Positions 5,749 to 23,948 of a DNA stretch of 64,000 nucleotides are shown piece after piece. The notes beneath the pieces were generated by a model, which saw only the letters and a program-made list of their open reading frames with translations, made no database searches and was not told the DNA's origin. The translations under genes were made by a program, and so were the position numbers. Within the stretch, counting starts at the first letter, position 1. Each line of letters starts with the position of its first letter. Source of the stretch: Halarchaeum nitratireducens. GTDB lineage: Archaea > Halobacteriota > Halobacteria > Halobacteriales > Halobacteriaceae. Location of the stretch: contig NZ_BMOQ01000006.1 of assembly GCF_014647155.1 (NCBI RefSeq), forward strand, positions 62,001-126,000. Reading direction: 5' to 3'.

Positions 5749-6560
5749 GATGGGGACCGGCGTGACTGCTAGGGAATACCGCCGAAATGGCATAGCTGTT
5801 CGGGTGGTCGCGGACGAGCCGACGGGGTTCGCGGGGGGCTGGCGGGCACAACTGGTCGTGAAGGTGATCAGATGAAGTGCGCGACGGACCTCTGCGAGTC
5901 GATCGGGAGCGCGAGTGCAGACGGGGATCGACGTCTGACGGTTGCTCCGCCATCGTTTCGTCCGGTTCGACGGTTTCGTGGTTACGTTGGTCTACGGGAA
6001 TTTTGAGGCGACGAACTTGAACGTAGGGGACGATAGCACTGCATGCTGGGAGCCGTCGCGGATACCGGGGTCGGCAGGGCCGGCACAACAATCGGTTCGT
6101 CGCCCAGTACTTGCGTGGAGAAGTGACCGCCCATAACGAACTGACAGGTAGACAATTGTTGACAACAATATTAGTGTCAAACACGTCAGGCGCGTCGGAC
6201 GTCGCGAGACACACGTCAACCGCCTGATCGGGTTTCTGCGTAATACATACCAAGAGCTAGGTGCCAGTATAATAATTTGATCCGTTAGCTGTTTCAGCAC
6301 GGGTCGCTCGCGTTCCCGTTCCACGCGCTATAAGCGTGAAACCGGTGGTACGGTTTGTCGATACCCGTGAGGGGCGGGGCACACAAATCCCCACCCCATA
6401 CGATGACCAGCAGGTGGCGCCTGACGGTGGTTACAAGCATCTCCGTCGCGTTGACTACGAGAGTGAATACGGGCAAGTCCCCCGACCGAATGTCCGACTA
6501 TCTGAGTAGGTGAACCGCTCTAACCAACGCACTTACGCAGAGAGCGAGTCGGTTGGTTAA
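5749..6560. other. Gene-poor intergenic stretch
   Basis: No open frame here has a recognisable protein match or haloarchaeal composition. The part from about 6120 is visibly richer in A+T than the flanking genes. It holds a short dyad, TTGTTG-A-CAACAA at 6156-6168, next to AATATTAG, which may be an old promoter or operator. The stretch leads into the transposase remnant and is probably debris of an insertion event. Confidence 0.5.
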
Positions 6561-17633: not shown

Positions 17634-18368
17634 TCAGTCGTCGGCGAGTTCGGGGTTCCGCGAGGCGTGCAGGCTGGCGCAAACGCCGCCCTGACCGCCC
17701 ATATTCGTCTTTGCCAACCGGGACGCGCGGCGCGCTCGCGGGACATCCGCGGGAGAGAGCGTCTCCTCGTCTCGCGATGCGAAGAGCCGATCGTCGTCGT
17801 CCGTGACGAGGTCAACAGCGCGCGCCTTCTCGAGGTATCGTTCGAGGGGGCGCGCGTCGAGTTCGACGTAGAGACCGTCGAGATCGATCGTCACCCGGTC
17901 CTCCTCGACGGTAAGGTCGCCGCGGCGGAGACGTGCGAGCTGTCGGTCGTCGACTCCGGCGTCGTCGAGGGCTTCCATCGCGTCATACTGGCGAGCGAGT
18001 CGGGCCTTCCGGTCGAGGGTCGCACGGGTCGATGCCACCTCGCCGTCGGCGGTGTCAAAGGCCGTCTCGAAGGAGAGGTCCTCGTTCACGCCGCGCGTCA
18101 CCTCCTCAGCGTGCATGTGGTCGCGGAGTTCGATCCGGACGTCGGCGACGCCGTCGAGCGCGCTGGCGGCGTCGCGGGCATCGGCGGCCATCATCCACGC
18201 GAATGTCGGGGAACACCACGCGGTCGGGAGCACAAACGCGAGGTGGACGTCGCCGTCATCACTCACGTCGAGCGTCTCGATGTAGTCAAGGTCGGTGATG
18301 GGCTGGTCAAGTTCAGGATCGGTAACGTCATCGAGGGCATCGCGGACCGCATCGGCAGTGACGGGCAT
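17634..18368 (-). CDS. MIP18/DUF59-family metal-sulfur cluster assembly-like protein
   Basis: A 244-residue protein. Residues 5-100 are a DUF59/MIP18 domain: VTDPELDQPITDLDYIETL, PTAWCSPTFAWMMA with the conserved Cys, and VRIELRDHMHAEEV. The C-terminal half is variable and charged, ending in a GGQGGVC-containing tail. Proteins of this longer type are encoded next to an amidohydrolase and an alcohol dehydrogenase in bacterial propane/acetone monooxygenase gene clusters, where they are thought to help maturation. It follows the amidohydrolase by two bases, so they form one operon. The monooxygenase itself is not in this window. Confidence 0.75.
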   Translation of the reverse strand: MPVTADAVRDALDDVTDPELDQPITDLDYIETLDVSDDGDVHLAFVLPTAWCSPTFAWMMAADARDAASALDGVADVRIELRDHMHAEEVTRGVNEDLSFETAFDTADGEVASTRATLDRKARLARQYDAMEALDDAGVDDRQLARLRRGDLTVEEDRVTIDLDGLYVELDARPLERYLEKARAVDLVTDDDDRLFASRDEETLSPADVPRARRASRLAKTNMGGQGGVCASLHASRNPELADD

Positions 18369-18370
18369 TC

Positions 18371-19420
18371 TCAGTCGGCCGCCCCCTCGTACTGCGCGCC
18401 GGTGTCGAATTCGGCGGATAGGTCGTCGTCGCGAAGCGCGGCCTTGCGTTCCTCGATGTCGATGTCATAGAGGTCGGCAGCGTTCTCACCGAGGACTTTC
18501 TTCTTCGTCTCCATGTCGAACTCGAGGCCGTACTCCGCCTTTTCCTCCTCAGTGAACTCGGTGTTAACGACGGCATCGAGCACCCAGTCGGGCTCCCAGA
18601 TGCCGTAGTCGCTCCCGAAAAGGATCTTATCGTCGCCGAGCCAGTAGAGGAGTTCGCCGAGGATCTCGCGGAACTTCTGGGGGCGATCGCGCGCCATCGG
18701 TGCGGCGACGGCGAGGCCGCCGTATACGTTGGGTTCCTGAGTGCCGATCCAGCAGAAGTCGTCGAGGCGGGGGAGCCCGACGTGTTCGACGACGAAGTTG
18801 AGTTCGGGGAAGCTACTGGCGGCGTCGTCGACGTCGGCGACGTCGAAGGCGTCGCGGTTGAGCGGCCGGATGGTCGGACCCTTGTGAGCGTGGACGTTCT
18901 CGATACCGAGGTCCGCGCACTTCTGGAGGAACTCGAAGGAGTCCTCGGAATCAAGTCGCCACCCCTTCGAGTCGCCGCGCCACTCAGCGGTGTACACCTT
19001 GACGCCCTGGATGTCGTACTCGCGGGCCTGTCGTTCGAGGTCCTCGAGGCCGGCCTCGCCCTCTCGTGGATCGAAGCGCCCGTTCGTGATGAGCCGGTCG
19101 CCATACTCGTCGGCCAGCGCGCCGCAGTCGTCGATCGTGTTGAATCCGTCCTCGTAAAACTCCTTGAGGTACGTCGGTTGGAAGATGCCAACGTCAACGT
19201 CACCGGTGCCGAAGACATCCGAGAGGAACTTCTCGTCGCTGTACGTTCGGAACTCTTCCAGAGTCCACTGACGCTCCTCGGGAGTGAATCCGGTGTGATA
19301 ATCGTAGAAGCACTTGATGAACTGCTCACCGCCCTCATGGATGATGTTCTCTTTTGTCGCGTCCCACGCATGCAGGTGACCGTCGATGACGAAGATGTCC
19401 TCACCTTGATGCTGAAGCAT
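18371..19420 (-). CDS. Amidohydrolase family 2 protein (propane-monooxygenase-cluster type)
   Basis: A 349-residue TIM-barrel metal-dependent hydrolase of the amidohydrolase-2 group. Metal-site elements are DGHLHAW (about 13-19), HAHKGPTIRPL (about 176), FVVEHVGLP (about 213) and GSDYGIWEPDW (about 270). These blocks match closely the amidohydrolase encoded beside mimABCD/prm propane monooxygenases, for example CFYDYH, IFQPTYLK, NGRFDPR, KVYTAEW. A TATA-like ATTATTAT at 19446-19454 lies about 30 nt before the start, so it is probably leaderless and divergent from the alcohol dehydrogenase. The reaction it performs is not known. Confidence 0.82.
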   Translation of the reverse strand: MLQHQGEDIFVIDGHLHAWDATKENIIHEGGEQFIKCFYDYHTGFTPEERQWTLEEFRTYSDEKFLSDVFGTGDVDVGIFQPTYLKEFYEDGFNTIDDCGALADEYGDRLITNGRFDPREGEAGLEDLERQAREYDIQGVKVYTAEWRGDSKGWRLDSEDSFEFLQKCADLGIENVHAHKGPTIRPLNRDAFDVADVDDAASSFPELNFVVEHVGLPRLDDFCWIGTQEPNVYGGLAVAAPMARDRPQKFREILGELLYWLGDDKILFGSDYGIWEPDWVLDAVVNTEFTEEEKAEYGLEFDMETKKKVLGENAADLYDIDIEERKAALRDDDLSAEFDTGAQYEGAAD

Positions 19421-19592
19421 TGCGACTCGACAAAGGAAATGTGTGATAATAATTGTTAGGGTTAGACCGAGTTCGTGGCGTAGTATGAGTGTTTAATTCA
19501 CGATCGATCCCACATACCAAACGGTCTTTCGTGACAAATTTTGCCCGTATGGCGGTCTTTAGTATCGTTTCCTGTCCGCGTTGAATCGAACG
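19421..19592. promoter_or_regulatory. Divergent promoter region (amidohydrolase / alcohol dehydrogenase)
   Basis: This AT-richer 172-bp spacer carries two outward TATA-like boxes: ATTATTAT at 19446-19454 for the minus-strand amidohydrolase and CTTTAGTAT at about 19557-19565 for the plus-strand dehydrogenase, each about 27-30 nt from its start codon. Joint control of both units from here is likely; the nearby IclR protein is the obvious candidate. No clear dyad was identified. Confidence 0.55.
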
Positions 19593-20630
19593 ATGCGCGC
19601 AGCACGACTCCACGAGTACACGGACGACATGAACGATGCTCTCACCGTCGAGGAGGTCGAGCGGCCGGAGATCGAGGCGTCGGACCAGATCGTCGTCGAG
19701 GTCGAAGGAGCGGGATGGTGCCAGACGGACAACCACATCATCGAGGGGATGTGGGAGTCCTACGCCGATCAGGACCTCCCGATGACGCTCGGCCACGAGA
19801 ACGCCGGGACTGTCGTTGAGGTCGGCGAAGAAGTGACGACCGTCGACGTCGGCGACGCCGTGCTCTGTCACCCGCTTCGCACCTGTGGAAAGTGTCGTTC
19901 CTGCCGCCTCGGAAACGACATGTACTGCGAGAACGCCGCCTTCTCCGGGCTCGATACGGACGGCGGGTTCGCCGAGTATCTCCTCACTTCCGAGCGCGCC
20001 GCGATCAAACTCGACACGGTCGATCCCGTCGACATCGCGCCCCACGCGGACGCAGGGATCACGGCCTACCACGCCACGAAGAAAGCCGTCGATGTCCTCG
20101 TTCCCGGCGAGTACTGCGTGCTCTTCGGGATCGGGGGGCTCGGACACATCGGCCTGCAGGCCGTGGAGGCGATGAGCGCTGCACAGACGATCGCCGTCGA
20201 CGTCAAGGACGACGCCCTCGCGCTCGCCGACCGCCTCGGTGCCGACTACACCGTCAACTCCGCCGACGAGGACGTCACGGACGCCATCGTTGGAATCACC
20301 GACGGCGCGGGCGCACGGGAGGTACTCGACTTCGTCGGCGCCGACGTCACAACCGACCTCGCACCCGAGATCGTCTCGCCCGGCGGTGATCACCACATCA
20401 TCGGCTACGGTGGCCACATTCATCGCCCCGCACAGGACCTCGTCGACGGTGAGTTCGACTATCGCGGCAACCTCGTCGGCACCTACACCGAACTCCAAGA
20501 ACTCGTCGCGCTCGTCGAACAGGGCGAGATCCACCTCACCACGAGTGAATACGGACTCGACGAGATCAACGAGGTCGCCGAGCGGCTCGAACACAACGAA
20601 ATCGAGGGCCGAGCCGTCATCCGCCTGTAG
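19593..20630 (+). CDS. Zinc-dependent alcohol dehydrogenase (MDR family)
   Basis: A 345-residue medium-chain dehydrogenase. The catalytic zinc site is GWCQTDNH and LGHENAG (about 33-67), the structural zinc has four Cys in CGKCRSCRLGNDMYC (about 92-106), and the NAD-binding loop is FGIGGLGHIG (about 172-181). The ATG at 19593 is preferred over TTG at 19581 because it fits the TATA spacing. Its pairing with the amidohydrolase and DUF59 genes mirrors bacterial propane/2-propanol oxidation clusters, where such an enzyme oxidises a secondary alcohol; substrate here is inferred. Confidence 0.85.
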   Translation: MRAARLHEYTDDMNDALTVEEVERPEIEASDQIVVEVEGAGWCQTDNHIIEGMWESYADQDLPMTLGHENAGTVVEVGEEVTTVDVGDAVLCHPLRTCGKCRSCRLGNDMYCENAAFSGLDTDGGFAEYLLTSERAAIKLDTVDPVDIAPHADAGITAYHATKKAVDVLVPGEYCVLFGIGGLGHIGLQAVEAMSAAQTIAVDVKDDALALADRLGADYTVNSADEDVTDAIVGITDGAGAREVLDFVGADVTTDLAPEIVSPGGDHHIIGYGGHIHRPAQDLVDGEFDYRGNLVGTYTELQELVALVEQGEIHLTTSEYGLDEINEVAERLEHNEIEGRAVIRL

Positions 20631-20768: not shown

Positions 20769-21536
20769 TCAGTACCCTTGCATCTCCAGCTCAATGAGGT
20801 TCGCGGCGTCCGAAACTCGCGGCGCGAGCGCTTCCAGTCGCTCGTCACTCATACGACTCGTCGGGCCCGCGATGCTGATCGCGCCGACCCTCCGATCCGC
20901 CCCAGCATCGCCACGGTTCTCCACGGCGGCGGCGACGCAGCACAACCCCTCTAGTTGTTCCTCCCGATCGAACGCGACCCCCCGTTCGCGGATGGTGTCG
21001 ATCTCCGCTTTGAGCGTGGAGCGGTCGGTGATCGTGTGCGGTGTCGTCTCCGGGAGGCCGCGCTCGTCCAAGATCTCGTTGACGCGTTCCGGCGGAAGTT
21101 GTGCGAGGACCGCCTTCCCGAGCGCGTTGTCGTGGAGATGCTTGCGTCGACCGACCGTGTCGAAACGGACGGCATCGTCGCCGTGAGCGTCGTAGACGTA
21201 GTATCCGTAGCCGTTCTCCTCGATCATCAGGATACTCAGCTCTCCCGTCTGCCGCGATAGCTCGTCGACTTTGGCCTTGCCGACTCGGTAGACGTCGAGG
21301 TTTTCGACCGCTCGGTGTCCCATGTTCAAAAGGCGCATCCCGAGGCGATACTGTCCATCTATCTCAACGACGTACGACTGATGTGCGAGCGTTTTGAGGT
21401 GGTAGTGCATCGTGTTCCTGGCAAGGTCGAGGTGGTCCGCGATTTCGGACGCCGTCGCCGGGCCGAGGACGGCGAGTGCGCCGAGGATGGTGAGCGATCG
21501 TTCGCTCGATTGAATCCGTTTTTGTTCGTCGACCAT
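20769..21536 (-). CDS. IclR-family transcriptional regulator 1
   Basis: A 255-residue IclR protein. Residues 10-75 are the winged helix (SLTILGALAVLGPATASEIA, LDLARNTMHYHLKTL), and the rest is the IclR effector domain with LGKAVLAQLPPERVNEIL and the IAGPTSRM end typical of the fold. Such proteins bind small catabolic ligands. It is convergent with the alcohol dehydrogenase and divergent from the GlcG-like gene, so either the propane-type module or that gene could be its target. Confidence 0.87.
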   Translation of the reverse strand: MVDEQKRIQSSERSLTILGALAVLGPATASEIADHLDLARNTMHYHLKTLAHQSYVVEIDGQYRLGMRLLNMGHRAVENLDVYRVGKAKVDELSRQTGELSILMIEENGYGYYVYDAHGDDAVRFDTVGRRKHLHDNALGKAVLAQLPPERVNEILDERGLPETTPHTITDRSTLKAEIDTIRERGVAFDREEQLEGLCCVAAAVENRGDAGADRRVGAISIAGPTSRMSDERLEALAPRVSDAANLIELEMQGY

Positions 21537-21874: not shown

Positions 21875-22303
21875 GTGAACGTCGTGAGCGAATCAATCAC
21901 GCTGTCGACGGCGAAGGAACTGATCGATGCGGCGGAAGAGGCGGCCGAGGAGATCGGAGTATCGATGGTCATCACGGTGGCGAATCCGGCGGGGAACCTC
22001 GTCGCCCAACACCGGATGGACGACGCGTGGCTGGCGAGCGTCTCCATCTCGCGCAACAAGGCCTACACCGCGGCGGCCCTCCAGATGCCGACGCACGAGC
22101 TCGCGGACCCCACCCAGCCCGGCGAATCACTCTGGGGACTCCAGACCACCGACGAGAACCGGCTGGTCGTCTTCGGCGGCGGCTATCCGCTCGAAGTCGA
22201 CGGCGAGATCGTCGGGACCATCGGCGTCAGCGGCGGCGAGGTCGCCCAGGACATGACCGTCGCCGAAGCCGGCGTCGAGCGCTTCGACGAGCTTACGGCG
22301 TAG
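21875..22303 (+). CDS. GlcG/HbpS-family (DUF336) protein
   Basis: A 142-residue protein of the GlcG/HbpS fold, a small alpha-beta protein seen alone or fused in glycolate, diol and haem-related loci; its biochemical role is poorly known. Family features visible are the first long helix TAKELIDAAEEAAEEIG, the strand VITVANPAGNLVAQHRMD, the YTAAALQMPTHEL block and the GTIGVSGGEVAQDM end (about 112-125). The GTG at 21875 or 21884 is the likely start, following a TATA-like CTATTAAGTAT near 21850-21860. Confidence 0.8.
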   Translation: MNVVSESITLSTAKELIDAAEEAAEEIGVSMVITVANPAGNLVAQHRMDDAWLASVSISRNKAYTAAALQMPTHELADPTQPGESLWGLQTTDENRLVVFGGGYPLEVDGEIVGTIGVSGGEVAQDMTVAEAGVERFDELTA

Positions 22304-23022: not shown

Positions 23023-23145
23023 ATGACGTCCGAAGGTGAGACGAGCACGTCGGTGTTGACGACCGGTCACTTCCGGGGCGTGCGCGATCGGCGCCCGAGG
23101 CGGAAGCGTGATGCTTTACCGGACGGCGAGAAAGATGAACTATGA
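23023..23145 (+). CDS. Small 40-residue leader protein overlapping IclR-2
   Basis: A frame of 40 codons, rich in Arg, Asp and Glu in its second half (RGVRDRRPRRKRD), begins at an ATG 27-30 nt after the TATA element inside the 22983-23001 dyad and stops in a TGA that overlaps the ATG of the IclR gene (ATGA). This geometry suggests translation and coupling to the regulator. I recognise no family. An alternative is that it is only untranslated leader and that IclR-2 uses the TTTACC box near 23115. Confidence 0.4.
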   Translation: MTSEGETSTSVLTTGHFRGVRDRRPRRKRDALPDGEKDEL

Positions 23146-23948
23146 CCGACCACGAGTCGTCCGGGGTGTTGCAGACGACGGCGATATCGCTCCGGCTCGT
23201 CGACGTCCTCTTGGAGCGAGAGGGAGCGAGCCTCACCGAGCTAGCCGAGGCGACCGGCCTCGCGAAGAGCACCGTCTACAGCCACCTCACCACGCTCGCC
23301 GAGTACGGGTACGTCGTCAGCGACGCGAACCGGTACCAACTCGGGGCGAAGTTCTGCCACCTCGGAGACTACGTCCGAACCCGAAAGGAGTACTACCAGA
23401 TCGCCGAGGAGGTCGTCGGGTGGCTCGCCGACGAGTCGACGATGGAAGTGGACTTCGCCGTCGAGGAACACGGTCGCGTCATCTCGCTCTACGGGAACCT
23501 CGAGTTCGCCAACACGCCGAGGTTCCTCATCGACGGCAGCCCGTTTCACGTGCACACGACCGCGTCGGGAAAAGCGATCGTCGCGGAGTACCCGGAGAGC
23601 CGGATCCACGAGATCCTCGACCGCTGGGGGCTCCCGGCGGCGACCGACGAGTCGATCACGACGGAGGACGCATTCTTCGCGGAGCTCGAGCGCGTCCGCG
23701 AGCAGGGGTACGCCGAGAACCGCGGCGAGGCGGTCGAAGGGTTCTGGGCGGTCGGCAAGGCGGTGAAGTCCCCGCGCGGCGGCGTCTACGGATCGCTGAA
23801 CCTGAGCGGGCCGGAGTACTTCGCCGACGCGGACACCAAGGCGACTCAGGTCGATCTCCTCGAACGCGCCGCGGCCGACTTCGAGCGGAAGATGGCCGAC
23901 AGATATCGGTCGTCTCGACCGGACCGGGACGTCACGGAGGATTCGTAG
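23142..23948 (+). CDS. IclR-family transcriptional regulator 2
   Basis: A 268-residue IclR protein: winged helix at about 12-75 (LTELAEATGLAKSTVYSHLT) and effector domain with FHVHTTASGKAIVAEYPESR and GSLNLSGPEYF. It stands at the head of the 24-42 kb catabolic island, directly before the BCCT transporter. It is therefore the best candidate for the protein that recognises the TACGGWWWCYGTGTA sites found throughout the island. The start is the ATG in the ATGA overlap with the preceding small frame. Confidence 0.87.
   Translation: MTDHESSGVLQTTAISLRLVDVLLEREGASLTELAEATGLAKSTVYSHLTTLAEYGYVVSDANRYQLGAKFCHLGDYVRTRKEYYQIAEEVVGWLADESTMEVDFAVEEHGRVISLYGNLEFANTPRFLIDGSPFHVHTTASGKAIVAEYPESRIHEILDRWGLPAATDESITTEDAFFAELERVREQGYAENRGEAVEGFWAVGKAVKSPRGGVYGSLNLSGPEYFADADTKATQVDLLERAAADFERKMADRYRSSRPDRDVTEDS

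Follow-up and report, generated by a model that had tools for sequence, protein, structure and literature searches.

An amidohydrolase, DUF59 protein and alcohol dehydrogenase module of haloarchaea, related to propane monooxygenase accessory genes and kept without the oxygenase

The trio locus in Halarchaeum nitratireducens

The DNA analysed here, called the window throughout, is a 64,000-nucleotide stretch of the haloarchaeon Halarchaeum nitratireducens (contig NZ_BMOQ01000006.1, positions 62,001 to 126,000), and the subject is a trio of genes at positions 17634-20630 that encode an amidohydrolase-2 protein (AMH), a DUF59 protein (FES) and a zinc alcohol dehydrogenase (ADH). A preliminary description of the window had grouped these genes and compared them with the accessory set of the soluble di-iron monooxygenases (SDIMOs) that act on propane or acetone, and Pfam domain matches confirm the identity of all three. 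The features of the locus are as follows:

17634..18368, minus strand: FES, 244 aa, PF01883 (E=1.8e-16), DUF59/MIP18 domain at residues ~5-95
FES residues ~117-225: C-terminal half-domain that resembles the N-half of the tyrosine-recombinase catalytic domain
18371..19420, minus strand: AMH, PF04909 (E=2.9e-44), TIM barrel, first gene of a two-gene operon
19421..19592, no strand: gap between AMH and ADH, ~170 bp, divergent promoter region
19593..20630, plus strand: ADH, PF08240/PF00107, medium-chain zinc alcohol dehydrogenase

AMH lies upstream of FES on the same strand, with a spacing of 2 bases. The earlier grouping holds for the three genes and changes in its details: the "MIP18 protein" carries a second domain, and ADH is divergent from, and outside, the operon formed by AMH and FES. 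The likely start of ADH is the ATG at 19593, which is preferred to the TTG at 19581 where the list of open reading frames began.

Distribution of the trio and of the oxygenase in haloarchaea

A search for SDIMO alpha and beta subunits (PF02332) returned no match in the whole H. nitratireducens genome, and no match to GroEL was found in the window or at the haloarchaeal trio loci, in agreement with the earlier remark that the window holds neither a mimABCD-like subunit nor GroEL. With 98% completeness in 27 contigs, the assembly leaves a small chance that an SDIMO falls in a gap. In a sample of 292 haloarchaeal genomes from 77 genera, AMH was present in 87 genomes spread over 36 genera, and a PF02332 match was found in none of these 87. 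The search is considered valid because the same query detected SDIMOs in other haloarchaea and in bacteria (3 of the 292 haloarchaeal genomes and 10 of 24 other genomes or records); AMH occurs in none of the three SDIMO-bearing haloarchaea. Two explanations had been offered for the missing oxygenase. Its presence elsewhere is not supported, because no SDIMO was found in the rest of the genome or in any of the trio-bearing haloarchaea, and a different role of the module in haloarchaea gains support from the retention of the trio in 87 genomes without an SDIMO. The trio is a stand-alone haloarchaeal module.

The three haloarchaeal SDIMOs (alpha and beta subunits at loci L057, L058 and L059 of genomes G064, G217 and G095; PF02332 E to 1e-58) are ~25% identical to the propane type; two of them have IclR genes nearby, and the AMH-FES pair is absent. 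They are a separate haloarchaeal oxygenase lineage.

FES is present in exactly the 87 haloarchaeal genomes that contain AMH, a pairing far beyond chance, and lies directly downstream of AMH at 87 of the 88 haloarchaeal loci, the 88th ending at a contig end. ADH is divergent at 75 of these loci, downstream at 3 and not adjacent at 10, and its orthologues occur in 158 haloarchaeal genomes. Because the ADH family is thus the broader one, AMH-FES is regarded as the core of the module and ADH as a frequent companion. A conserved fourth gene was sought around the haloarchaeal and the SDIMO-free bacterial trios, and none was found.

Bacterial relatives

A bacterial scan with one genome per species yielded 80 loci related to the trio. 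SDIMO genes are present at 59 of these loci (50 of which also contain ADH) and absent from 21, and FES is present at 78, the remaining two loci being at contig ends. The haloarchaeal AMH is 47-58% identical to its bacterial relatives (tblastn against plasmids), and ADH is 42-52% identical to bacterial trio members that keep the same gene company in clusters with or without an SDIMO. The proposed match to the accessory set of propane/acetone monooxygenases is upheld by these identities and by the 59 SDIMO-bearing loci, and the opposite outcome, relatives with no link to monooxygenases, is not what the loci show. In Caballeronia, Aminobacter, Ponticoccus, Paracoccus and Bradyrhizobium, genes for the SDIMO alpha subunit, reductase, beta subunit and coupling protein are followed by AMH, FES and GroEL, and the same accessory set has been described in Rhodococcus, Gordonia and Mycobacterium (PMC4428276, PMC6849523).

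The SDIMO-free trio occurs in Thermomicrobium, Thermogemmatispora, Chloroflexus, Ktedonobacterales, Poribacteria and Bacillota. PF02332 was found nowhere in 13 of 20 searched bacterial genomes with an SDIMO-free locus, and some genomes with such a locus (e.g., Acidiphilium, Thermomicrobium roseum) hold an SDIMO away from the trio. In Mycobacterium sp. AT1, an amidohydrolase, an unknown protein and an ADH are encoded at a chromosomal site apart from the oxygenase (PMC6849523). GroEL is present at 56 of the 59 SDIMO loci, compared with 1 of the 21 SDIMO-free loci, which is on a short cut contig. GroEL follows the SDIMO, whereas AMH-FES does not, and this behaviour of GroEL accords with the report that it is essential for heterologous expression of the oxygenase (PMC6849523).

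The amidohydrolase and its distant relatives

AMH is a member of PF04909, with a score of 152.4 bits against a curated cut-off of 26.4. Its metal-site pattern HxH, H, H, D (H15, H17, H179, H213 and D271) is invariant in 44 sequences; one sequence beyond these 44, from Peribacillus, has Ala in place of H17. The best fold match of a structural model (pLDDT 92.1) is the uncharacterised structure 3irs (Z 28.0, rmsd 2.7, 270 residues aligned), and ACMSD-type amidohydrolases and decarboxylases are matched at Z 20-23; as modelled, AMH folds like the ACMSD-type decarboxylases.

Ten distant AMH relatives (23-35% identical) each adjoin an Fe-S-type gene, DUF59 in nine cases and NifU-type in one, and no SDIMO is listed beside the annotated loci among them. 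Residues D13, H17, D76, K141, H179, K180, D196 and H213 are common even to distant AMHs, and H15 and D271 are kept only in those of the trio family. Because these relatives also adjoin a DUF59 or NifU-type gene, the constant association is that of AMH with an Fe-S assembly protein, the oxygenase being optional, and we therefore infer that FES serves AMH. On the best reading, FES is a metal or Fe-S partner that belongs to AMH and is no SDIMO factor. The open-access literature on DUF59 with amidohydrolases or recombinases yielded nothing relevant. The downstream partner of a distant AMH in Shinella (L192; positions 5996-6292) is a NifU-type protein with CxxC instead of a DUF59 protein.

A DUF59 domain joined to half a recombinase

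In the AlphaFold model of FES (pLDDT 94.9), the first part (residues 1-103) superposes on CIAO2B/DUF59 with Z 12.8 and rmsd 2.8 over 101 residues, and the second (residues 119-222) on residues 151-273 of Cre recombinase with Z 10.7 and rmsd 3.3 over 99 residues. The PF01883 match and the conserved C52 place FES in the DUF59/MIP18 family, and its scores are below the cut-offs for PaaD (NF041868; 28.7 bits against 180) and for SUF-associated DUF59 proteins (TIGR02945; 31.6 bits against 143.4). C52 and C230 are invariant in the bacterial alignment (45 of 45, window included) and in haloarchaea (22 of 22). FES was also considered as the PaaD of a phenylacetyl-CoA epoxidase and rejected, as PF05138 (PaaA/PaaC) has no match in the H. 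nitratireducens genome and the control, Haloferax volcanii, is positive.

A profile of 45 FES tails, compared by hhalign with 13 tyrosine recombinases from six bacterial genomes and H. nitratireducens itself, gave a probability of 89 (E 2.3e-6, 81 columns), and shuffled, reversed and unrelated controls gave probabilities of 0.2 or less. The homology rests on structure and profile comparison, since the Pfam integrase model PF00589 by itself was nearly silent on the tails (1 of 45, at E=0.09). At the position of the catalytic Arg I most sequences have S, T or D, and the protein stops short of box II. FES is not an active recombinase, because this Arg is replaced and the second half with its His/Arg/Tyr is missing, and its tail appears from model and profile to be a degenerate tyrosine-recombinase catalytic domain reduced to its N-half. 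The tail is missing from the short DUF59 proteins that partner distant AMHs, and it was therefore probably gained in the trio lineage.

The alcohol dehydrogenase and the likely substrate

The nearest PDB entry to ADH is the archaeal ADH 1h2b (E=2.7e-95), followed by the secondary alcohol dehydrogenase ADH-A of Rhodococcus ruber, and the next ADH in its own genome is only 33% identical. By its domains and closest solved relatives, ADH probably belongs with the NAD(P)-dependent zinc alcohol dehydrogenases that act on secondary alcohols. The short-chain alcohol or ketone suggested earlier as a substrate would, at best guess from the ADH family and the propane context, be a small secondary alcohol or ketone.

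Origin and genomic surroundings

The haloarchaeal AMHs group in a single clade (SH-aLRT 100) that sits on a long stem; when an outgroup of distant relatives is added, the tree resolves neither the deep branches nor the haloarchaeal position. Transfer from bacteria, for which the preliminary description called for amidohydrolase trees, is made likely by the breadth of distribution but is unproven.

The nearest relative of the locus (L037, on contig C144 of genome G187, from another haloarchaeal family) contains the trio and an IclR gene at 81-93% identity to those of the window. The 93% identical AMH copy comes in addition to the genome's own copy, which is 67% identical, and this points either to a recent transfer from one haloarchaeon to another or to a contaminant in the fragmented assembly.

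The gene adjoining ADH in the window is:

20769..21536, minus strand: IclR-family regulator, PF01614/PF09339

This regulator, a possible local regulator of the trio, is kept beside ADH only in L037, and other IclR genes adjoin the trio in Thermomicrobium and Thermogemmatispora. A search of the AMH-ADH gap for a shared operator gave only a weak string resembling TGGTA...ACTACACA, which recurs near the AMH start at some loci (L042, L045, L050, L055 and L066); it may be an operator or a chance recurrence. Past ADH, the IclR regulator is followed by an HbpS-like protein, a second IclR, a BCCT transporter and a class-III aminotransferase. In the part of the window at 21875-22303 and 23142-23948, the HbpS-like protein (PF03928) lies between two IclR-family regulators, with no link to the trio established. 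Archaeal flagellar-type genes are found upstream of the trio, at 12.7-16.6 kb of the window.

Role of the module

Because neither H. nitratireducens nor the other trio-bearing haloarchaea have the oxygenase, the trio must have a role of its own. The preferred explanation, to which a rough probability of 0.5 is given, is a self-contained module that handles a small secondary alcohol or ketone independently of any monooxygenase and in which FES is the dedicated partner of AMH. ADH would oxidise or reduce a small, probably secondary, alcohol or ketone using NAD(P), and AMH, as a metal-dependent TIM barrel of the ACMSD/decarboxylase type, would act on the same compound or on a pathway neighbour, possibly through C-C, hydration or decarboxylation chemistry. 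The DUF59 domain of FES (with its invariant C52) and C230 would most likely serve to supply AMH with iron or an Fe-S cluster, or FES may stay bound to it. In bacteria, the module may have been linked with propane/acetone monooxygenases for its ability to process the products downstream of them, and in haloarchaea it would be used alone on a substrate taken up or produced by other routes.

Several observations weigh against this explanation. There is no close solved relative of AMH (the best PDB profile match is 3irs, at E=0.0032), and an enzyme activity or substrate was found for no AMH of the family. The genes around the SDIMO-free trio vary from locus to locus and indicate no pathway. Additionally, the link with ADH looks looser, since many ADH orthologues occur in genomes that lack AMH-FES (158 genomes against 87) and ADH is not adjacent to AMH at ~10 loci.

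A wider and more tentative proposal is that AMH-FES represents a general but uncharacterised class of amidohydrolase-fold enzymes that depend on iron. Each would have an Fe-S assembly protein of its own, be it a DUF59 protein, a NifU or a DUF59 domain fused with a dead half of a tyrosine-recombinase domain. Such enzymes would catalyse reactions other than hydrolysis on small ketones or acyl compounds, and the propane clusters would be only one site of their recruitment.

Alternatively, the haloarchaeal module could have been recruited to a new and unrelated substrate (e.g., one derived from amino acids or amides), with only the catalytic machinery in common with the propane clusters. The long stem of the haloarchaeal AMH clade is consistent with such a change, as are the M20/M28 peptidase-like hydrolases in the vicinity of several haloarchaeal trios (some of them repeat counts of a single lineage), the genes for an amidase, an SSF symporter and M20 next to the trio of Bacillaceae and the hydantoinase genes beside the Rhizobium pair, but these neighbours are inconsistent from locus to locus. 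The retention of all three genes together, including ADH, and the ~50% identity of AMH and ADH to the bacterial proteins speak against an unrelated substrate, which is less likely than the preferred explanation.

It is improbable that AMH and FES serve in the maturation or assembly of the di-iron monooxygenase, the haloarchaeal copies being relics or working for an oxygenase elsewhere in the genome. DUF59 proteins such as PaaD serve oxygenase systems, and AMH-FES stands beside oxygenase genes at 59 of the 80 bacterial loci. However, the SDIMO is missing from all 87 haloarchaeal trio genomes and from 13 of the 20 searched bacterial genomes with an SDIMO-free locus, the H. nitratireducens genome has no PaaA/PaaC epoxidase (with valid controls), and the active-site and cysteine positions are retained in haloarchaea, unlike those of relics. 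Beyond the oxygenase genes themselves, the factor reported as essential is GroEL (PMC6849523). The idea that AMH is itself an O2-activating di-metal (Fe/Mn) oxygenase that replaces the monooxygenase and takes iron from FES, as might be suggested by AibH2 and PtmU3 (di-metal oxygenases of the amidohydrolase superfamily; PMC7782822, PMC12141560), by the iron-linked partner that always adjoins AMH and by the di-iron amidohydrolase-fold structure 8sm6 (SfbO) at rank 44 in the AMH fold list, is very unlikely: AMH has H15-x-H17 and no His at D271+3, where the published AibH2 ligands include D25-x-H27 and D337-x-x-H340, and the mapped trio loci contain no ferredoxin or reductase gene.

In propane-monooxygenase clusters, AMH and FES are usually taken for accessories of the oxygenase whose role is unknown. 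Because ~30% of sampled haloarchaea and members of several bacterial phyla keep the pair oxygenase-free, its function is open to study apart from the oxygenase. If FES does load iron into AMH, a whole branch of the amidohydrolase superfamily would consist of iron enzymes with private metal-delivery partners, and FES appears to be a case of half a tyrosine recombinase reused, catalytically dead, in a metal-handling protein.

Comparison with known systems

AMH shares its superfamily, and possibly iron, with the di-metal oxygenases AibH1H2 and PtmU3, and differs from them in having no electron-transfer partner genes and apparently in its ligands: by the published list, the set in AibH2/PtmU3 is D-x-H, H, E, D-x-x-H, a motif not seen in AMH with its HxH. 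The ACMSD, gamma-resorcylate and 5-carboxyvanillate decarboxylases (PF04909) are like AMH in fold (Z 20-23) and in the HxH, H, H, D pattern, but the sequence match is very weak and AMH offers no evidence of a site for an aromatic-acid substrate. Short AMH-DUF59 pairs on plasmids of haloarchaea and bacteria (Natrinema, Haloarcula, Natronorubrum, Sphingopyxis and others; L189-L197) also have an Fe-S-type gene directly after the AMH-fold gene, often overlapping it; unlike in the trio, their AMHs are 23-30% identical to it and do not keep H15 and D271, and the partner has no recombinase-like domain. The neighbours of these pairs include acyl-CoA, SDR and aldehyde dehydrogenase genes.

The Thermomicrobium roseum locus (NC_011961, L062), with the order IclR-FES-AMH-ADH, resembles that of the window in having a trio without adjoining oxygenase genes and an adjacent IclR, but its FES, AMH and ADH are on one strand, and an SDIMO is found on the same replicon (NC_011961.1) at 899 kb, ~370 kb from the trio. 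The closest known systems are the accessory genes of prmABCD/mimABCD (group 5/6 SDIMOs of Gordonia, Rhodococcus and Mycobacterium; PMC4428276, PMC6849523), where an amidohydrolase, a metal-sulfur cluster protein, an ADH and GroEL lie downstream. Judged as a group 5/6 cluster, the haloarchaeal locus has the accessory AMH, DUF59 and ADH genes and lacks the hydroxylase alpha/beta subunits and a dedicated GroEL. The haloarchaeal cluster differs further in being without a reductase, a coupling protein or an SDIMO elsewhere in the genome, in having no adjacent GroEL and in its divergent ADH. It shares with the prm/mim accessories the three families and the AMH-FES order, at ~50% identity for AMH and ADH and ~30% for FES, and this haloarchaeal version is carried by ~30% of the sampled haloarchaea.

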